This document shows positions 8-12,898 of a DNA stretch of 44,264 bases, piece by piece. The position numbers were made by a program, and so were the translations under genes. Source of the DNA: a virus; the IMG/VR virus record IMGVR_UViG_3300030118_002156, positions 3,681-47,944 of that record; one strand, given 5' to 3'. Below the pieces are notes generated by a model. That model was not told where the DNA came from. It saw only the letters and a list, made by a program, of their open reading frames with translations, and did not search any database. How positions within the stretch are numbered: the first letter of the stretch is position 1; every line of letters starts with the position of its first letter.

Positions 8-427
8 CTACCATGATGTTCTAAAGACATGACCATTATCAGAAATTGAATAGTCCCATGAAAGACCATCTTCCCATGTTTCCTCCCAATCTATCTTTAT
101 CCATGTAGGCATATCATTAGGAATATAGCCACAATCATTACAAATATGCTCGGCATAATCTGCACCACTATCCCATTGACCATGATAGTTTTCTTCAAGG
201 TTTTCAATATCTTCGATACGAAAAATATCTAGCCAATCGTCAATAACTTCCTGACTATGATTTTCTAACAACTCATAATAAGTGTTAGCATATTCATTAA
301 AATTGTCTTCGCCATGCTCTCCTATAAAAGTAAGAAGATCTAATTCGCTAACATCATAAGAATCATTTAATTCAAAGATTTTCTCTTTGGTTTCTTCTGA
401 TAATTTGTTTAAGGTTTGATTTGACAT
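8..427 (-). CDS. ardA: ArdA-like antirestriction protein
   Basis: This 139-residue protein is very acidic, as expected of a DNA mimic that occupies type I restriction enzymes. The C-terminal half carries the ArdA-like pattern: an E-N-Y-H-G-Q-W-D-S stretch (about 80-88), D-Y-A-E-H, a Gly-Tyr, then I-D-W-E-E-T-W near 112-118 and a final G-H-V-F-R (about 132-136). Known ArdA proteins are longer (about 165), so the N-terminal domain is short or diverged. It is the most downstream gene of the minus-strand left arm. A GTAACA box (449-454) lies upstream. Antirestriction is an inference from family resemblance; a generic acidic phage protein is the alternative. Confidence 0.62.
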   Translation of the reverse strand: MSNQTLNKLSEETKEKIFELNDSYDVSELDLLTFIGEHGEDNFNEYANTYYELLENHSQEVIDDWLDIFRIEDIENLEENYHGQWDSGADYAEHICNDCGYIPNDMPTWIKIDWEETWEDGLSWDYSISDNGHVFRTSW

Positions 428-2949: not shown

Positions 2950-3714
2950 TTAAGATTTAAGTGCAATCTTCCAATCGTATCTGTCATAATTAGCTCTACT
3001 CTCTATCTGCCTTTGCCTGTCTGCGAGTCTCACTACAATACCATCTGTGGGAAACCTACTGAATAGTTGCGAGTTCTGCCAGTTATCAAATAAAGTTTTT
3101 ACCTTATTTACTACATTAGTTTTTACATTAATTAAACCACTACTTTGTAAACCTAAAGATAAAAATATTTCTTGTTGCTTTGATGGGTCATCTTGAGAAT
3201 CTAAAATCTCAAAAGCACAAAAAGCTAAACCTTCACCAGTAGGATCTTTTTTGCGTAAGTGACCTGATGCGAGTCTTTGAGAATAAGATGGTGTTTTATG
3301 AACACCGTATAATTCACCTCTAATTAATAAATTATCTTGCTTATCTTTTATTTCTAATGGAATATTTTTGACAGTAGTTAAGGCATATAGCTTATCCTTA
3401 CCTCTGCGAGTCCATGCGTTTGAAAGAAAACCATTTGAATAACGTAATAAAATAGCACAACCGTCTATCTTAGGCTGAACAACTACTGATGGCTTATCTT
3501 TAAATAATTCATACCATTCAGAGAAGATAGGTGTATCTAGCCCATCTAGGATTACACCTTTCTTTAGTTCGCTAAAAACTGGGTGGTTAGGATATTTAGT
3601 TTTTACCTTATTTTTAATATCATCAAATTCTCTGTCAGTTATAACAGCCTTGCCTGCACGATATAAAGCATCATGCCTAATAAGATCTATTGCGAGTTTT
3701 TTGATAGAAGACAT
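2950..3714 (-). CDS. Stand-alone NAD-dependent DNA ligase adenylation domain
   Basis: The 254-residue protein matches the nucleotidyltransferase part of bacterial LigA. The N-terminus has a domain-Ia-like stretch (about 18-31, I-T-D-R-E-F-D) that in LigA binds NMN. Motif I is K82-I-D-G with the adenylated lysine, then a R-R-G near 103-105, motif III R-G-E-L-Y (132-136), motif IV D-G-I-V-V-R (224-229) and motif V W-K-I-A-L-K (248-253). The protein stops there: the OB-fold, zinc, helix-hairpin-helix and BRCT parts of the usual 650-residue enzyme are absent. It sits among replication genes and starts after a CTATCT leader. Whether it seals nicks alone, needs a partner, or only transfers AMP cannot be told from sequence. 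Confidence 0.78.
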   Translation of the reverse strand: MSSIKKLAIDLIRHDALYRAGKAVITDREFDDIKNKVKTKYPNHPVFSELKKGVILDGLDTPIFSEWYELFKDKPSVVVQPKIDGCAILLRYSNGFLSNAWTRRGKDKLYALTTVKNIPLEIKDKQDNLLIRGELYGVHKTPSYSQRLASGHLRKKDPTGEGLAFCAFEILDSQDDPSKQQEIFLSLGLQSSGLINVKTNVVNKVKTLFDNWQNSQLFSRFPTDGIVVRLADRQRQIESRANYDRYDWKIALKS

Positions 3715-4831: not shown

Positions 4832-4835
4832 TCAG
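4797..4835 (-). terminator. Alternative hairpins at the end of the primase-helicase gene
   Basis: Arm A (4797-4808, CTGCCCTACCTC) can pair with arm B (4814-4824, GGTTAGGGCAG; about 10 bp with one bulge). It can also pair with arm C (4824-4835, GAGGTAGGTCAG; 11 of 12). Arm C overlaps the stop codon of the gene. The two structures exclude one another, as in an attenuator. The run of U after the A-B hairpin on the minus strand is weak, so termination is uncertain. Confidence 0.4.
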
Positions 4836-6994
4836 TCTATCGAGTCTCGAATGTAGACCCATTTGCGACTGCCTTGAATAGTTTTTCTTATTTTTCTATA
4901 GCCTAATTGTTTTAAAATTAATGAAACTTGCATTTGATCATATCTATTTTGTCTCTCTACAGGTTTTTCAATAGCGAGTGTAAGTACCTCTTCTGTTGAT
5001 AACTCACGACCATAATTTTGTGGGTTTTCAGTATAACTTTTTATAACTGATTTCCAAGGACTATCTATTAAATACTTTTCATTTTCAATATTAATTTGTT
5101 GTTGAAATTCTTGTTTTAATTGAAGAGTTTCTTCATTTTTAAAACAGTTATAAGCACTGCACCATATACGATCTCTTTGTTTATTTAATTCATCTATATC
5201 AATAGGATCAAACATTGTATGTGATGTTGGGATAATTAGGAACCTACGATTGCCTGTTTCATCTTGAAGTACACCATCAGTGGAGTTAGAAGTTCCCACT
5301 ATTATGCTTCTTCTTTTAAATCTCTCTGTCACCTTCCCATAAGGTACTCTATACATATCAGTTGACTGAGATAAAAAAGCTTTTATATCAGATGCAGCTT
5401 TCTTATTCGTTATGCTTTCCAATTCGGACCATTCGTGAATCCATGCAGAATTTATGATTTGATATGCGTCTTTACCATGAATATCTTTTAAACTATCGCT
5501 AAAAAATTCTCCTGCGAGTGCTTGAAAGAAACTACTTTTTCTTGCTCCTTGTGGGCCAACAATAATTAAGGCATTATCCCATTTATAGCCCGGCCTAAAA
5601 GCCCTATAAACTGCTGCTATGAGAGTCTTCTTAAGCATCTCATCATACATTGTAGGTTTATCATACTTCGAGTCTTCCGGTCTTAAGAATTGTGATGCGA
5701 GTCTGTCAATATCTATTGGAGTTTCTCTATGAGCAACAGTTAATAAATATTCTTTTACTGGATTATATGGTCTTTGTCTTGCTACTTGTACTGCACAGTC
5801 AATCGCTACATCTTTACTTATTTTCTTTCCAAGCTTTGCAAGTGTTAGATAAAATCGCTCAATAGAGTTTTCTCCCTCGCAAATCACTGCATCTTCTCCA
5901 TAACCTTTTTGAATCTGTTGAGTATATTCGTTGTATCTTAAAGATTCCATGCTAGTTGGTGGTACTTTCTCTAAATCAGCAAGTAATTCATTAGCTTGAT
6001 AAGTTTGTAATCTATCTACAGTTATTGTTAATTCTTTTGATGGATCATTTGGATCTTGCATCTTCATGACTTTAGGAATCTGAAAGCCATTATCTTTTGC
6101 AAAGTACCAGAAAGACGCTGCTGTTATTGCTTGACCACCGCTATCAGCTATTTGTTGAACATCTGTCCAATCTGGCGAATGAGTTTTCATTAAAGAAACT
6201 GCATCATCTTTTGTTTTACCACTTTCGAGACAAGCCTTTATAAGGCCCCACAGCAAGTTTCTGTAAATAAAATATGTGCCAGTTCCGGGTTTTCTAGGTG
6301 GGATACAGAATAAAGCCTTTTGTATCTGTTCAAAAGGTAAAGGTTCATATTGTTTAAAAGATAAAGCTTCTTTTACTTTTAATGCGTCCTTTTTTGTAGG
6401 TAAACATCTTTCAATATCTGATAAATTATAACGATTTTCTGATTGATGAATAATAGAGGTCTTATCACCTTTACCTTTATCATTCATGTGAAAAGTTCCG
6501 GGCAAACGCATTACTCTGGAAGGATTTTTTAATGCTCTATCTGCATCTGCATAATCAAGTAATCTCTCTTGTATTTGTCTCCAAGTCTTTACATCACAAC
6601 CTCGTTTTAAAACCCAGTAGTTGTGTATAGATTTCCCTCCGGTATTAATCTGAATTGACGGCTCGGGGAGTCCCAACTCACGCCACAAGTACACTTGTTC
6701 ATCAATATCTCTATCGTCCCATTCAATAAAGAAAGCTCTGCAATTTGTTATTTCACTATCGGTATCACCTCCATCATTAACAACAAAATAAACACCCTTG
6801 CCTGCATCTTGATTTTTTTGTATCCATTCAACAGCTTCAGCCCCATTGCTTGTTGACATCTTCGCTCCACGATCCTGAGCCTTTAATGGGTGTCCTTTAG
6901 GATAAAAAGATCTTAACCTTACTTGTTTTGTATCTTTTCCAAGAAGTTTAAAAAAAGACCGCCATTCCTCACGATCTAAAGTAGTGTTCGCCAT
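4832..6994 (-). CDS. PrimPol-VapE-type primase-helicase
   Basis: A 720-residue replication protein. The N-terminal third looks like an archaeo-eukaryotic-type primase-polymerase: I-E-W-D-D (90-94) as the metal-binding motif, S-I-H (122-124) as motif II, and D152 with R-L-P-G-T (163-167) as the third region. The C-terminal part is a VapE-like SF3/AAA helicase with Walker A G-P-Q-G-A-R-K-S-S (480-488), Walker B region W-I-H-E-W-S-E-L-E (518-526), sensor G-T-S-N (567-570) and an arginine pair in G-N-R-R-F (581-585). It should prime and unwind DNA at the phage origin. It lies downstream of the nuclease and SF2 helicase genes on the same strand. The leader TTATCTTCTATCAA precedes the ATG, without Shine-Dalgarno. 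Confidence 0.85.
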   Translation of the reverse strand: MANTTLDREEWRSFFKLLGKDTKQVRLRSFYPKGHPLKAQDRGAKMSTSNGAEAVEWIQKNQDAGKGVYFVVNDGGDTDSEITNCRAFFIEWDDRDIDEQVYLWRELGLPEPSIQINTGGKSIHNYWVLKRGCDVKTWRQIQERLLDYADADRALKNPSRVMRLPGTFHMNDKGKGDKTSIIHQSENRYNLSDIERCLPTKKDALKVKEALSFKQYEPLPFEQIQKALFCIPPRKPGTGTYFIYRNLLWGLIKACLESGKTKDDAVSLMKTHSPDWTDVQQIADSGGQAITAASFWYFAKDNGFQIPKVMKMQDPNDPSKELTITVDRLQTYQANELLADLEKVPPTSMESLRYNEYTQQIQKGYGEDAVICEGENSIERFYLTLAKLGKKISKDVAIDCAVQVARQRPYNPVKEYLLTVAHRETPIDIDRLASQFLRPEDSKYDKPTMYDEMLKKTLIAAVYRAFRPGYKWDNALIIVGPQGARKSSFFQALAGEFFSDSLKDIHGKDAYQIINSAWIHEWSELESITNKKAASDIKAFLSQSTDMYRVPYGKVTERFKRRSIIVGTSNSTDGVLQDETGNRRFLIIPTSHTMFDPIDIDELNKQRDRIWCSAYNCFKNEETLQLKQEFQQQINIENEKYLIDSPWKSVIKSYTENPQNYGRELSTEEVLTLAIEKPVERQNRYDQMQVSLILKQLGYRKIRKTIQGSRKWVYIRDSID

Positions 6995-7024: not shown

Positions 7025-7381
7025 TTAGTTAATCTTTAAAATATTTAAGGCATCTTGAATACTACGAGCAACACCTGTAATACCTCCAGCCTTCTTAACG
7101 ACTTGCAACCAATTATGCTGTAGATCTGAAACTTTACCACGTTTATTTTTTACTTCAATGGAACAAAAGACTGCGAGTTTCTCACCAACCATATCAGGAG
7201 TAACTTCGATAGTTTTAAATCCAATTAAATCTGATGACCCTTTAGCCAAACCAAAATCCACCCACTTCCCAGTTCTGGGGTTAGGTAAGGAACCAGTTTC
7301 GTTTCTGAAAAGTCTTAAGTTTTTTTCTTGACCAACAGCTAAACGAATCTCTTGTTGAATTTGGTTCTCAGATTGCGACAA
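7025..7381 (-). CDS. VRR-NUC domain nuclease
   Basis: A small PD-(D/E)XK nuclease of the VRR-NUC family, usually linked to structure-specific cleavage in phage replication. Visible motifs are I-Q-Q-E-I-R-L-A at the start, L-F-R-N-E-T-G, G-S-S-D-L-I-G (catalytic Asp) and S-I-E-V-K-N-K-R-G-K (catalytic Glu and Lys). The start is unclear. No ATG exists in frame; the TTG at 7381 gives M-S-Q-S-E-N-Q-I-Q-Q-E-I, the usual family start, while a TTG at 7423 adds an unlikely hydrophobic segment. It lies 30 bases ahead of the primase-helicase start, so the two are probably co-transcribed. Confidence 0.75.
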   Translation of the reverse strand: MSQSENQIQQEIRLAVGQEKNLRLFRNETGSLPNPRTGKWVDFGLAKGSSDLIGFKTIEVTPDMVGEKLAVFCSIEVKNKRGKVSDLQHNWLQVVKKAGGITGVARSIQDALNILKIN

Positions 7382-7475
7382 AAATAAGATGTTTAGTATT
7401 AGTAATAAAATAGCAGAAGACAAAAAGATATGGTAATTTTGAATTGCAATCCTTAATTGCGGAAAAAAGGTTATT

Positions 7476-7612: not shown

Positions 7613-9319
7613 TTACCAATCCCAAGGATCTCCACTATTGTTTTTATTGTTATCAGAATTAAGTGGTCTGGAAGTAAACCTACGACCTTTTTTCCTAGAC
7701 ATAAATTTTGCATAGGCCCAGCCAGTTTTATATCCTCTTTTTTGTTCGATAACTTTTAATTCTGATAAAGTTCTTGCATTTCTTACTTCCATTTGTTCAT
7801 CTTTTTTTCTTACAAATCTTGCAAGTGAATATACATTTTTTCTTTTAACATAATTAACTTTTTTGCCATCATCATCTTCAATTAATTTTTTTACTCTTTC
7901 TATTGGTACTGATCTTTCTTTTTTGTTTGCAAGTTTTTCTAAGTGATGTTTTGCAATTCCTATGACGTAAGCTGCTTCTTGATTACCATCTTTTAAAACA
8001 AAAGGCATAATATTGTAATCGTTGGAATAGCAAATAAAAGTTAATTTTTTAGAAGTACTTAAATCAATAAATTCATCTCCGGCTTTCATTTTGAAAGTAC
8101 GATCTAATTTCTTTAATTCACCTTCTGCTTCTGTTAATTCTCTTGCAGTTGGAATTATTTGATGTCCACAAACAGGACATTTTTTTGCTGGTTTAAAGGT
8201 GGCAAAACAAACCTTGCAAGTTTGTACCCTAATTTTTTTCTCATCTTTCTTTCGCTTCTGCCTGTTGTTATGTAAATTCCAAAGCCTATCATCATCAACA
8301 AAACCATGTTCCTTTGTATTACCAACATGATCTAAAACTATTGCTGTTTTATTTGGTTGGGGTCTAAGTATTCTCCCCACTTGTTGCATGTAAAGTGACG
8401 TAGATTTTGTTGGTCTGAGTAAAATTCCGACTGCAACATTTGGAATATCCGTACCTTCCGAGACAATATTGCATGAGCATAAAACTTCGACTGATCCATC
8501 TGCTAATCCTTGTATAGCAGTATCTCTATCTTTACTAGACATACTGCCTTCAACAACTTTTGCCTTATATCCGGCTTTTACAAACTTATCACAAGTAACT
8601 TCGGCATGTTTAACAGATACACAAAAAGCAATAGCCGGTAAATGGTCTGCATGTTTTTTATACATTTGAACAGCGTCACCAACTATATCTGCTGCTAATG
8701 TTTTTTCTTCTAAATCTTTTTGATTGTAATCACCACCAATAGATCTGACTTTAGTTAAGTCAAGATTATTAGGTGCTGCAAAAACAATATGTGGTGCTAA
8801 ATATCCATCTTTTACAAGTTCTTTAATAGAAACACCAACTAATAAAGATTCAAAAAAAGCTCCTAATGGTTTGCCGTCTAATCTTTCTGGTGTAGCTGTA
8901 ACACCAACGCTAATAGCATTAGGATAATTTTTTAAAACTTTAGACCAAGTATTATTTATAGTTACATGATGTGCTTCATCTATAATTATTACGTCAGGAA
9001 TAAAATCTATTTTTCTTCTAACTAATGTTTGAACTGAAGCGACTTGAACATTAGATTTAGTCTGGGGAAATTTAGAAGCTATTATGCCGTGTGGAATATT
9101 AAACAAAGAACATTTATCACTAGCCTGCTTAACAAGCTCTCTTCTATGAACAAGAATTAAGACATTATTATCCTTTTTAAGGCATTGTTTAGCTAAATAA
9201 GAGAAAATAACAGTTTTTCCTGCTCCTGTAGGAAGAACTAATAATGGTCTTTTAGTGCCTGATTTAACATCAGCTACTAATTCGTCATAAATTAAATTTT
9301 GATAACCTCTGAGTTCCAT
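7613..9319 (-). CDS. SF2 DEAD/DEAH-box helicase with zinc ribbon
   Basis: I start at the ATG at 9319 (M-E-L-R-G-Y-Q), since the family begins with this Q-motif-like element; a TTG ten codons earlier lies inside the repeat array. The 568 residues carry Walker A L-P-T-G-A-G-K-T (29-36), D-E-A-H (114-117), T-A-T-P (141-144) and motif VI Q-Q-V-G-R-I-L-R-P. A C-K-V-C...C-P-V-C zinc ribbon follows the helicase core (about 373-391). The order is that of phage SSL2/RadD-like helicases, thought to act on branched DNA during replication or recombination. The C-terminal 180 residues are basic and not assignable. It is divergent from the recombination operon. Confidence 0.85.
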   Translation of the reverse strand: MELRGYQNLIYDELVADVKSGTKRPLLVLPTGAGKTVIFSYLAKQCLKKDNNVLILVHRRELVKQASDKCSLFNIPHGIIASKFPQTKSNVQVASVQTLVRRKIDFIPDVIIIDEAHHVTINNTWSKVLKNYPNAISVGVTATPERLDGKPLGAFFESLLVGVSIKELVKDGYLAPHIVFAAPNNLDLTKVRSIGGDYNQKDLEEKTLAADIVGDAVQMYKKHADHLPAIAFCVSVKHAEVTCDKFVKAGYKAKVVEGSMSSKDRDTAIQGLADGSVEVLCSCNIVSEGTDIPNVAVGILLRPTKSTSLYMQQVGRILRPQPNKTAIVLDHVGNTKEHGFVDDDRLWNLHNNRQKRKKDEKKIRVQTCKVCFATFKPAKKCPVCGHQIIPTARELTEAEGELKKLDRTFKMKAGDEFIDLSTSKKLTFICYSNDYNIMPFVLKDGNQEAAYVIGIAKHHLEKLANKKERSVPIERVKKLIEDDDGKKVNYVKRKNVYSLARFVRKKDEQMEVRNARTLSELKVIEQKRGYKTGWAYAKFMSRKKGRRFTSRPLNSDNNKNNSGDPWDW

Positions 9320-9330
9320 AAGATTACTAA

Positions 9331-9370
9331 TTGTTGCAATTATGTGCAATTAGTGGCAATTAGTTGCACA
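9331..9370. repeat. Four 10-bp phased repeats (TAGTKGCAAT-like)
   Basis: Four successive decanucleotides, TTGTTGCAAT, TATGTGCAAT, TAGTGGCAAT and TAGTTGCACA, occupy 9331-9370 without gaps. A 10-bp period puts every copy on the same helix face, as in an operator array. It lies in the 94-bp divergent region between the helicase and exonuclease genes, so a bound protein could control both. Confidence 0.65.
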
Positions 9371-9396
9371 TTGTTCCTTTATGATACATACTGTTA
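9364..9396 (+). promoter_or_regulatory. Promoter of the recombination operon
   Basis: TTGCAC (9364-9369) as -35 and CATACT (9387-9392) as -10 are separated by 17 bp on the plus strand. A TGTTAC box (9392-9397) overlaps the expected start of transcription. The -35 lies inside the last phased repeat, so binding to the array would compete with RNA polymerase. Confidence 0.45.
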
Positions 9397-9413
9397 CTAA
9401 ATACGTCAAGTGA

Positions 9414-10262
9414 ATGAATCAACAAGTACCTCTGATTGATATGTCTAACAAGGAATATCATCAAGATGATGCTAAATCTTCAACAGACATGAGAAACATT
9501 CTTAAATCAGATGAATTGTTCATGTCTAAATTAACTGAAATTATTGAACCTACTAAAGCTATGCAACAAGGCACAGCTTTGCATACATATTTCCTTGAAA
9601 GAGATAAATTTAAAGATGAAGTTGCAGTTAAAAGTTCAGATATTAAATTAACTACTAAAGCCGGTAAGGAATGGGTAGCTAAGCAAAAAGATAAAATTAT
9701 TATTGATGAAGAATTTTTTAATATTTTTCCAATAATTGAACAAAAAATAAACTCTAAAGCTAGTGATATTTTTAAGGTAGATGGAGTTAAAGAAGCAAGT
9801 TTTTTCTGGAAAGATAAATACGATATTAACTGCAAATGTCGGCCTGATTATTTAAGTCCTGATTTTAGTTATATGATTGATTTAAAAACTACAACTGATG
9901 CAAGTCCTCGTGGATTTAAAAGTTCAGTTATTAAATTTAATTATGCAGTACAAGCACAGTTTTATATAAGAGGTATTGAACAATGCACTGATATAAAACC
10001 TAGCAAGTTTTATTTTATAGTTATTGAAAAGACTAAGCCGTATCATGTAGAACTATACGACCTTGATGAAACTTGGTTGTCTATAGCTGATAAAGATATT
10101 GATGAAGCTTTATATCGGATAGACAGCTTAAGATCAAGAGATTATAAAGCTAATGGATACTCAACAGAATGTACGACCCTACACCCGCCTGATTATTTAG
10201 TTAATAGAGAAAAACCACAAATCCAAACTGGATTAAGTATTAACGACATACCTTTATTCTAA
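9414..10262 (+). CDS. RecE/DUF3799-type PD-(D/E)XK exonuclease
   Basis: The 282-residue protein resembles phage exonuclease VIII C-terminal (RecE-like) nucleases, which chew one strand of double-stranded DNA to feed an annealing protein. Visible motifs are Q-G-T-A-L-H-T-Y-F-L-E (about 51-61), C-R-P-D-Y, then M-I-D-L-K-T-T (catalytic D-x-K) and Y-A-V-Q-A-Q-F-Y. The last residues, N-D-I-P-L-F, look like the C-terminal tip of bacterial SSB. It starts the plus-strand operon, and its stop overlaps the next start (TAATG). The RecT-family gene two positions downstream fits the role. Confidence 0.8.
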   Translation: MNQQVPLIDMSNKEYHQDDAKSSTDMRNILKSDELFMSKLTEIIEPTKAMQQGTALHTYFLERDKFKDEVAVKSSDIKLTTKAGKEWVAKQKDKIIIDEEFFNIFPIIEQKINSKASDIFKVDGVKEASFFWKDKYDINCKCRPDYLSPDFSYMIDLKTTTDASPRGFKSSVIKFNYAVQAQFYIRGIEQCTDIKPSKFYFIVIEKTKPYHVELYDLDETWLSIADKDIDEALYRIDSLRSRDYKANGYSTECTTLHPPDYLVNREKPQIQTGLSINDIPLF

Positions 10263-10462
10263 TGCAACCAAATTTTCCAAAAGAACCATATTTAGGACAA
10301 ATTTATTACAGTCCTACTACAAAAAAAGTCTATAGATATGACGAACCTGTAGATAAAGATGGCAAAAAAATTAAAGAACTTTGCCAATGGGAAGACATAA
10401 CAGAGTGTTTTGTTAATAACCCAACAAACCCTTTTAAAAATACACAAGGAGAAGAATCTTGA
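10262..10462 (+). CDS. Small protein between exonuclease and RecT, unknown
   Basis: A 66-residue protein rich in Tyr, Pro and charged residues, with G-Q-I-Y-Y-S-P-T-T-K-K-V-Y-R-Y-D like a small beta hairpin. Its ATG overlaps the exonuclease stop, and its own stop overlaps the RecT start (TTGA). An AGGAGA Shine-Dalgarno (10447-10452) near its end serves the next gene. Tight coupling suggests it works with the recombination pair, but I do not recognise it. Confidence 0.6.
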   Translation: MQPNFPKEPYLGQIYYSPTTKKVYRYDEPVDKDGKKIKELCQWEDITECFVNNPTNPFKNTQGEES

Positions 10463-11136
10463 ACACTGACATCACACCAACTAATAACAGCGAATCTTCT
10501 GTTTATTTAAAAGATTCTGCTTTTGAAATGGCACAAAGACAAGCCAGAAGTTTAGCTGCATCTTCATTAGTACCACCAGAATATCAAGGAGAAAAAGGTA
10601 TGGGTAATTGTATTGTCGCTCTTGATATTGCAAAAAGAATGAATGTAAGTCCTCTTACTGTTATGCAAAATCTAAATATTGTTCACAACAGACCATCGTG
10701 GAGTAGTGCTTGGATTATTGCTCAAATACAAGGTTGTGGTAGATTTTTAGATTTTAATTATGAAGTTACAGGTAAAGGTGTTGATATGCAATGCTACTGT
10801 ACTGCTAAAAGGATAAGTGATAAAAAGCTAGTTAAAGGATCTGTTGTTTCTATAAAAATGGCACAAGCAGAAGGTTGGACAAGAAATAGTAAATGGCGAA
10901 ATATGCCAGAGCAAATGCTTAAATATAGAGCAGCTACTTTCTTCGGAAGACAATATATTCCTGATTTGTTATTAGGAGTTCAAACTAGCGAAGAAATAGT
11001 AGATATTACACCTCTTGATGTAACACCTGTTAAATTAGCAAATGGAGAATTAGGTGTTAATGAAAAAGATGTAGAGATTGATCCATCACCTGTAAAAATT
11101 GGAAAAAAGGAGGAAAAAGATGACTTCGACTTCTAA
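10459..11136 (+). CDS. recT: RecT-family single-strand annealing protein
   Basis: The 225-residue protein matches a RecT-type family found in many phages. The core has L-V-P-P-E-Y-Q-G, a G-N-C-I-V-A-L-D-I-A-K-R-M helix, S-P-L-T-V-M-Q-N-L, then R-P-S-W-S-S-A-W-I-I-A-Q-I and Y-R-A-A-T-F-F-G-R. It should anneal the single strands made by the exonuclease two genes upstream. The start is TTG, supported by AGGAGA seven bases before it and the overlap with the previous stop. The tail (E-E-K-D-D-F-D-F) is acidic and aromatic like SSB tails. Confidence 0.8.
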   Translation: MNTDITPTNNSESSVYLKDSAFEMAQRQARSLAASSLVPPEYQGEKGMGNCIVALDIAKRMNVSPLTVMQNLNIVHNRPSWSSAWIIAQIQGCGRFLDFNYEVTGKGVDMQCYCTAKRISDKKLVKGSVVSIKMAQAEGWTRNSKWRNMPEQMLKYRAATFFGRQYIPDLLLGVQTSEEIVDITPLDVTPVKLANGELGVNEKDVEIDPSPVKIGKKEEKDDFDF

Positions 11137-11317
11137 TGATTGTCCTGCCTTAATGAGTCAAAAACAATTAGCTGCAAGATGGCAAATGAGTAGAACAACG
11201 CTTCACCGAATGAGAGCAGAGGGTACAGGTCCACCCTATATAAAAATAGGAGTAAGTATTCTCTACAAATTGGCTGATATTGAAGCCTACGAAAAACAAA
11301 ACACTATCTCTAATTAA
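11120..11317 (+). CDS. AlpA/excisionase-like helix-turn-helix protein
   Basis: The ATG at 11120 has a strong AGGAGG (11108-11113) six bases upstream, which decides it over a TTG seven codons earlier. The 66 residues hold a MerR-like winged HTH: M-S-Q-K-Q-L-A-A-R-W-Q-M-S-R-T-T-L-H-R-M-R, then G-P-P-Y-I-K-I-G and I-L-Y-K-L-A-D-I-E-A-Y. Proteins of this type act as excisionases or small transcription regulators. No integrase is present in the window, so a regulator of the divergent promoter or operon is as likely. It overlaps the RecT end by 17 bases. Confidence 0.7.
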   Translation: MTSTSNDCPALMSQKQLAARWQMSRTTLHRMRAEGTGPPYIKIGVSILYKLADIEAYEKQNTISN

Positions 11318-11674
11318 ATGTTTAAAATCCGTCTACCCATTTTCTCTAACTCTGAAGAAAGCAACAAAAAGCTTTATGGAGAAAAATATGATTCATCTAG
11401 GAATTATCCTACACATTCTGGAATACTAAATATTCCCGAGTCTCAACTAATTCCTTTGATTGATTACCTACAGAAATGCAAACCTGATTTTGATGAAAAA
11501 ACAGGTGAGAATATAGTTCCTTTAAAAATTAGTGGTTGGATTACAAAATCTGAATCTGGCTTAAAATATTTAGGAATGAATATTGAGCCAAATTATAATA
11601 AAGAACAAGAAATTATGAATGGTTCAGATGAAGGCAAAAGTAAACCACCTGAGTCTGATAATTTTAATTTCTAA
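11318..11674 (+). CDS. Possible phage single-stranded DNA-binding protein
   Basis: The 118-residue protein follows the HTH gene with no gap (TAA-ATG). It is beta-rich, with P-L-K-I-S-G-W-I-T-K-S-E-S-G-L-K-Y-L (about 68-85) recalling OB-fold or DUF736-like small proteins, then a flexible linker. It ends S-D-N-F-N-F, an acidic-aromatic tip like that of SSB. The position after exonuclease and RecT genes is usual for a phage SSB. The family match is weak, so the call rests on the tail and context. Confidence 0.42.
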   Translation: MFKIRLPIFSNSEESNKKLYGEKYDSSRNYPTHSGILNIPESQLIPLIDYLQKCKPDFDEKTGENIVPLKISGWITKSESGLKYLGMNIEPNYNKEQEIMNGSDEGKSKPPESDNFNF

Positions 11675-11979
11675 GTAAGTGGCATTGTAGACCCCAAACT
11701 ATAAGTAAGCCCACTTTCTAGCCTGCTGTAACCACTGAGTATTTACTAGCGAAAAGGTATGTATCGCTGCTCGTTTTTATTATTATGGTTGATGACACTA
11801 GGACCAAGGCAATAATGATGAAAGCAGTTATGAGTTCTTATCTGGGATTTACAGTGTGTCTGCGTTTTTTTGCCAAACTTTTTTGATTGGGGTTTGGACT
11901 TTGAGCGTTCATAGCTGTAAATAAGCGATATGTTACAGCAGACTAGATTTTACTACAATATAAGAAACTATCTCTATCT
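11675..11979 (+). other. 305-bp region without a firm gene; possible terminator and small RNA
   Basis: A weak hairpin AGCGA/TCGCT (11748-11768) followed by T5 (11774-11778) may end the recombination operon. T-rich runs and a CCAAAC/GTTTGG pair (about 11873-11897) follow. A 33-codon ORF (11785-11886) encodes a basic peptide with one hydrophobic stretch but no ribosome site. Near the end TGTTAC (11931-11936) and TACAAT, 17 bp apart, form the promoter of the next gene. Confidence 0.4.
11931..11959 (+). promoter_or_regulatory. Promoter with TGTTAC as -35
   Basis: TGTTAC and TACAAT are 17 bp apart, and the leader ends CTATCTCTATCT directly before the ATG at 11980. The TGTTAC word is the same as in the left-arm promoters. 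Confidence 0.45.
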
Positions 11980-12670: not shown

Positions 12671-12898
12671 TTAGCTTATAAGTGAAGGTTTACAAGTCTT
12701 TCTTAAGAATGTACTTTCTGTAATGTTTTCTACTTGTTGTTCTGGTTCTTGTAAAGTATGCCATCTATGTTCACACTCTAAACACCATCTTCTTCTTAAA
12801 ATTTCATAATCTTCATTAACTTTAGTTGAAACTATTCTTTGTTCAGTAAGTTTTTTGCATTTAGGACACTCTATCCAAAGGTATCTTTTTCTTGGCAT
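12671..12898 (-). CDS. NrdR-like zinc-ribbon protein
   Basis: The 75 residues contain C-P-K-C and, after R-R-R-W, C-L-E-C, separated by a spacing like the zinc ribbon of NrdR (C-P-x-C ... R-R-R-x-C-x-x-C). The ATP-cone of full NrdR is missing, so this is a ribbon only. It probably binds DNA or protein as a small phage regulator. The tail is acidic and unremarkable. Confidence 0.6.
   Translation of the reverse strand: MPRKRYLWIECPKCKKLTEQRIVSTKVNEDYEILRRRWCLECEHRWHTLQEPEQQVENITESTFLRKTCKPSLIS

Follow-up and report, generated by a model that had tools for sequence, protein, structure and literature searches.

The closest described systems to the locus analysed here are the Apl protein of coliphage 186, together with the related P2-like Cox proteins that are grouped with it as the closest known mode of control, and the BldC protein of Streptomyces. 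Apl binds six-base operators that are arranged as direct repeats 10-11 bp apart, does so in a highly cooperative manner, and represses both promoters; the purpose of this control outside excision is described as poorly understood (PMC7498355). BldC is a MerR-like protein made of a single winged helix-turn-helix (wHTH) of ~68 residues, and it forms a head-to-tail oligomer on direct repeats of variable number, with the consensus AATTXXXX(C) (PMC5859096). At the BldC site smeA-sffA there are four repeats, with one DNA turn per protomer (PMC5859096 and PMC11963761). A third close system is the excisionase RdfS of ICEMlSym-R7A, which binds its own promoter and negatively autoregulates; its sites are described as showing no clear motif (PMC11963761).

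Like Apl, the system described here combines a small phage HTH protein with one-turn repeats between and over two opposing early promoters (PMC7498355). It is found in a 47,944-base linear IMG/VR virus sequence whose head and tail proteins are in keeping with a long-tailed phage, and the window, meaning the whole stretch of DNA that was analysed, comprises 44,264 bases. A preliminary description had reported four ungapped 10-mers in exact 10-bp phase at 9331-9370, and both direct reading and shuffled controls confirm them:

9331-9340, plus strand: unit 1, TTGTTGCAAT, with core TTGCAA at 9334-9339
9341-9350, plus strand: unit 2, TATGTGCAAT, with core GTGCAA at 9344-9349
9351-9360, plus strand: unit 3, TAGTGGCAAT, with core TGGCAA at 9354-9359
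9361-9370, plus strand: unit 4, TAGTTGCACA, with core TTGCAC at 9364-9369, which is also the proposed rightward -35 box

The conserved part of the units is the core TTGCAA, with the variants GTGCAA, TGGCAA and TTGCAC. The column-majority score of the array, 34 out of 40 at 9331 (35 at 9329), is the highest that four copies at period 10 reach anywhere in the window. Dinucleotide shuffling of the window did not match it in 300 trials, nor did shuffling of the 94-bp intergenic gap in 5000, and when every period (6-21) and copy number (3-5) that was tried is corrected for, the score is reached in 0 of 2000 shuffles. Single 10-mers are not enriched across the window (15 matches against 10.6 expected). 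An exact-sequence search with an 18-base piece of the array gave no match in viral contigs, and no earlier description of the array was found in open-licence papers. We consider it probable that the phage's own HTH_17 protein uses the array as an operator, through which it would cooperatively repress both flanking operons.

The array is located between two divergent operons, and the genes that matter for the argument are the following:

4832-6994, minus strand: VirE-like primase/helicase (PHROGs 36873 and 1313)
7025-7423, minus strand: VRR-type nuclease/resolvase-like protein (PHROGs 93 and 5702)
7613-9319, minus strand: superfamily 2 DNA helicase, first gene of the leftward operon (PHROG 16, E 1e-102)
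9320-9413: intergenic gap of 94 bp, between the helicase ATG at 9319 (leftward) and the exonuclease ATG at 9414 (rightward)
9414-10262, plus strand: exonuclease VIII-like nuclease, first gene of the rightward operon (PHROG 412, E 8.6e-61)
10459-11136, plus strand: RecT-like single-strand annealing protein (PHROG 561, E 4.9e-56)
11120-11317, plus strand: HTH_17 winged-helix protein of 65 amino acids, the proposed binder of the array (PF12728, E 3.8e-9)
11318-11674, plus strand: small conserved protein with an acidic C-terminal tip, kept after the HTH gene in relatives

The rightward order is exonuclease, a 66-amino-acid protein, RecT, the 65-amino-acid HTH_17 protein and the small protein with the acidic tip. 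The last of these is probably an SSB-like protein; in the phages S-H1, KBS-S-2A and FoX3 the gene at or near the position after the HTH gene is annotated as a single-strand binding protein. The C-termini of the helicase, of RecT and of the 11318-11674 protein all have acidic aromatic tips of an SSB-like kind (DPWDW, DDFDF and DNFNF), which may be a docking tag that they share. The ~300 bases from the SSB-like gene to the gene after it (11675-11979) contain no open reading frame of 60 codons and no Rfam match up to E 1, and an RNA or control region might lie there unrecognised.

Both operons appear to start from sigma-70-type promoters within the gap. The best-fitting divergent pair with 17-bp spacers has its -35 boxes exactly 40 bp apart and its -10 boxes abutting:

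9364-9369, plus strand: proposed -35 box of the rightward (exonuclease) promoter, TTGCAC, within unit 4 and matching the position of the rightward -35 unit of relatives
9387-9392, plus strand: proposed -10 box of the rightward promoter, CATACT, 17 bp after unit 4 and resting on conserved geometry
9381-9386, minus strand: -10 box of the leftward (helicase) promoter, TATCAT, abutting the rightward -10 box
9404-9409, minus strand: -35 box of the leftward promoter, TTGACG (CGTCAA on the plus strand), in register with the array at a distance of 40 bp from unit 4

The leftward promoter (TTGACG-17-TATCAT) agrees with the consensus at 10 of 12 positions and is absent from the preliminary description, which had placed the -35 box of the plus-strand promoter in unit 4. 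That placement fits the conserved geometry of the relatives, but the promoter itself (TTGCAC-17-CATACT) is weak, agreeing with the consensus at 7 of 12 positions and being missed by a simple promoter scan. Across 12 chosen sequences, an offset of 40 bp between the -35 boxes gave a summed score of 173, while none of the 27 other offsets within 28-55 exceeded 158. Rightward -35 box and exonuclease ATG are separated by 50 bp in the window and in the relatives L003, L031 and L034. On the other side, the distance from the helicase codon to the rightward -35 box is 4, 14 or 44 bp in 10 of the 11 loci compared, and 6 bp in L019. Length differences therefore come in whole 10-bp units: the window has exactly 30 bp more than L003 upstream of unit 4, and resembles an L003 enlarged by three 10-bp units, as L034 resembles an L031 enlarged by one. 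It is worth noting that the -35 unit and the unit 40 bp from it are themselves promoter boxes, so the 40-bp phase follows in part from promoter geometry and would not by itself prove an operator. What the promoters leave unexplained are the unit in the spacer, the unit at +30 in a GC-rich clade of relatives, and units 1-3 of the window. The arrangement also differs from that of coliphage 186, where pR and pL converge and keep the lytic genes apart from the lysogenic ones; the two promoters here diverge and overlap, with abutting -10 boxes, and drive helicase and recombination operons.

The preliminary description had taken conservation of the array wherever both flanking genes occur as the point on which its reading would stand or fall. 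Relatives were collected by a RecT search, which gave L002 and L003 (73% identity), and by helicase alignment, which gave 80 further loci; these succeeded where searches with the exonuclease or helicase protein alone found no close relatives, and there are no direct DNA relatives among named phages. By tblastn, many of the relatives have the same two divergent operons, and the module shared among IMG/VR relatives consists of helicase, VRR-nuclease and primase leftward and exonuclease, RecT and HTH_17 rightward. The divergent gaps of the relatives show cores on a 10-bp grid, among them TTGCAT, TGGCAA and CCGCAA. As an example, L024 contains CTGCATGAGG TTGCATCTAA TGGCAACAGG CTATAGGGTG CCGCAAGTCG CCACAACC, and L034 contains two copies of TGGCGACGTG plus TGGCAAAAAG. 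The nearest relatives, L002 and L003, have in-phase units that are spaced and not four in a row. Over 25 loci grouped into 12 sequence groups, 18 pairs of GCA cores are 10, 20 or 30 bp apart where 1.5 would be expected, a number that none of 500 shuffles reached, and 12 such pairs, again for 1.5 expected, are left without the window; this count is only descriptive, since the loci were picked by eye and the motif was chosen after inspection.

Units were also scored over 81 loci, excluding the window and repeats of the L003 contig (L001, L011, L012), duplicate or truncated loci (L002, L016), loci without a helicase start (L058, L065), and those without a helicase match. At least three in-phase GCA units upstream of the exonuclease or the helicase are found in 21 of the 32 loci with exonuclease, RecT and HTH (at least four in 14), while 11 fall below three units; L032 and L009 are off the 10-bp grid. 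The same score is reached by none of the three loci that have the HTH gene without having both exonuclease and RecT, and by none of the 46 helicase loci without HTH (0/9 with exonuclease, 0/37 with neither). At five loci (L022, L025, L028, L033 and L035) the exonuclease operon is apart from the helicase, and there the in-phase units are found just upstream of the exonuclease and not of the helicase, which assigns the array to the HTH-encoding operon. A scan of viral contigs for the DNA pattern, using no protein information, gave 12 stretches, all 12 of them upstream of an exonuclease operon with RecT and HTH; the pattern was derived from relatives in the GC-rich clade, and four of the stretches are contigs already seen, leaving eight new ones. 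In L108 and L110 the helicase is ~450 bp from the array, so that a unit overlapping the helicase start elsewhere is not simply helicase coding sequence. The array is thus largely conserved in kind, that is in spacing and core, in 21 of 32 loci and 12 of 12 scan stretches; in its letters it is not, as the exact 10-mers differ.

The looser AT-rich pattern of the window matched 13 other viral stretches, none of them beside the helicase, exonuclease and HTH module, and the HTH profile picked up no more on these 13 than a weak frame of 35 codons in L126. The unrelated viral contigs L121 (12258 onwards, five copies), L118, L120, L122 and L123 have tandem 10-mers built on the core TGCAATTA, and no similar HTH gene was found in the stretches examined around them. 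In seven named phages that have an HTH gene beside exonuclease/RecT genes, or have the exonuclease, gaps were inspected by eye and the best period-10 place was computed, and no comparable array was seen; five of the seven have an annotated HTH gene adjoining the exonuclease/RecT genes. The period-10 scores here were 34 for L096, from a simple repeat far from the operon, and 32 for L100 and L102 at other places.

The HTH protein at 11120-11317, which the preliminary description had named as a candidate binder, is a plausible one and is now better founded, going by its sequence and predicted structure. It is the sole HTH_17 protein in the record, and each of 12 records with the module (12/12) contains at least one. 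It is a small single-domain wHTH (65 amino acids, PF12728) with no separate dimerisation domain, and its gene is located inside the operon that the array would control, although not as the first gene, unlike in P2-type phages. A profile of 25 sequences, compared with solved structures, matched the RdfS excisionase at E 6.2e-6 and BldC at E 0.0014. The AlphaFold2 model (pLDDT 80.7) has the order strand-helix-helix-strand-strand-helix; in a structure search with it RdfS ranked first (E 3.1e-3, rmsd 1.0 over 50 columns), DNA-bound BldC third and Pukovnik Xis 35th, with no match below E 0.001. RdfS is thus the best match in both sequence and fold, and lambda Xis and Pukovnik Xis are likewise wHTH excisionases. 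The RdfS sites are described as lacking a clear motif, whereas the units here are recognisable, and no integrase partner was found here. Apl, too, binds att as an excisionase. The array is not filed as an excisionase (recombination directionality factor) system, because neither a tyrosine integrase (PF00589, 0/12) nor a serine integrase (PF00239, 0/12) was found in the 12 records, which are linear and may be incomplete.

The comparison with BldC extends to the sites. The window has AATT at 9338, 9348 and 9358, so that its units carry the motif every 10 bp; unlike in the BldC consensus, the conserved core here is GCA, and AATT is absent from the units of GC-rich relatives. Direct repeats at about one turn and in variable number are found here as well, with four units in the window and 10-bp phase and whole-unit changes in the relatives. 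BldC is a cellular developmental regulator, and here the protein is a phage HTH. From the Xis/Cox/Apl class the locus has operator-like repeats over opposing early promoters and a candidate regulator in the controlled operon. By analogy, the array may work in the manner of Apl, Cox and BldC, with the 10-bp units as the likely binding sites of the HTH protein.

In the mechanism that we propose, HTH monomers would bind one per 10-bp unit, all on the same face of the helix, and neighbouring monomers would touch head-to-tail to form a short filament. In the window this filament would cover 9331-9370, including the rightward -35 box in unit 4, and would block the leftward transcript at its start, expected near 9374, and in its leader; a filament in this place would hence repress both operons. 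For the exonuclease-RecT-HTH operon this would amount to negative feedback, and the helicase-primase operon would be repressed along with it. Divergent promoters with abutting -10 boxes are already mutually exclusive, so what the filament would add is a cooperative off-switch, thrown as the HTH protein rises early in infection. If this is true, it gives a defined early-gene switch for an untargeted group of environmental phages, an apparently integrase-free case joins the Apl/Cox/Xis mode of control, and the whole-unit length differences among relatives are natural variants for relating filament length to repression. A further suggestion, which we make tentatively and hold to be rather doubtful as a whole, is that in these apparently integrase-free phages a protein of excisionase fold may have been given over to timing the replication/recombination switch. 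The divergent promoters along which it would polymerise overlap fully, and their -35 boxes would serve as filament units as well; on the helicase side, the strength of the brake would evolve by steps of exactly 10 bp, the rightward start being preceded by one, two or four units.

The array might instead be a phased operator for a different protein, such as a phage repressor or activator, a host regulator or a nucleoid protein, with the HTH protein acting elsewhere. Presence and absence cannot single out the HTH gene, since exonuclease, RecT and HTH travel together, and neither does covariation between HTH and operator: over 25 loci the partial r is 0.22 (P 0.032), compared with 0.23 for the exonuclease and 0.33 for the helicase, and over 11 distinct HTHs it is 0.04 (P 0.43). 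Units group by recognition-helix type, which is suggestive only, as the grouping follows phylogeny. There are also other possible regulators in the window, for example an NrdR-like zinc ribbon at 12671-12898, and the rightward promoter is weak by consensus, so that activation is possible. Against a different binder, the array tracks the exonuclease-RecT-HTH operon even where this is apart from the helicase, it is missing from all 46 helicase loci without the HTH gene, and the HTH belongs to a fold class that uses one-turn direct repeats. We therefore regard a different binder as unlikely.

Units 2-4 also form an imperfect dyad of 30 bp (9342-9371, no strand), which we read as a by-product of the palindromic core. 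It could work as a palindromic operator for a symmetric dimer, or, at the RNA level, as a hairpin of the helicase leader by which transcription or translation is tuned, and the plus strand does fold at -15.6 kcal/mol (z -3.35) and the minus-strand leader at -10.5 kcal/mol (z -1.9). The stronger hairpin is however on the plus strand, whose proposed start, predicted near 9399, is downstream; relatives, by inspection, keep the direct 10-bp units without the dyad, and the window has no Rfam match up to E 1, leaving only a small chance for this explanation. A similarly small one is left for iterons or a DNA-unwinding element of a replication origin, which the neighbouring helicase and primase genes and the short AT-rich direct repeats would suit; the units coincide with promoter boxes and follow the exonuclease operon away from the helicase, and most relatives have only 3-5 units, overlapping promoters. 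Functionless slippage duplication, for which the tandem 10-mers with the TGCAATTA core in unrelated viral contigs (five copies in L121) and without such an HTH found nearby could be cited, is close to negligible, given a phase that is maintained across diverged sequences, tied to one operon and coincident with promoter boxes.

Some minor observations can be added on the rest of the window. A few N bases are present in the record at ~3680-3690 of L010 (G000), inside a gene near the left end of the window. The protein at 12671-12898 (minus strand) is a stand-alone zinc ribbon that resembles the N-terminal part of NrdR and is without the ATP-cone. At 2950-3714 (minus strand) there is a 254-amino-acid protein whose match to NAD-dependent DNA ligase is limited to the adenylation domain, and 8-427 (minus strand) encodes an ArdA-like antirestriction protein.
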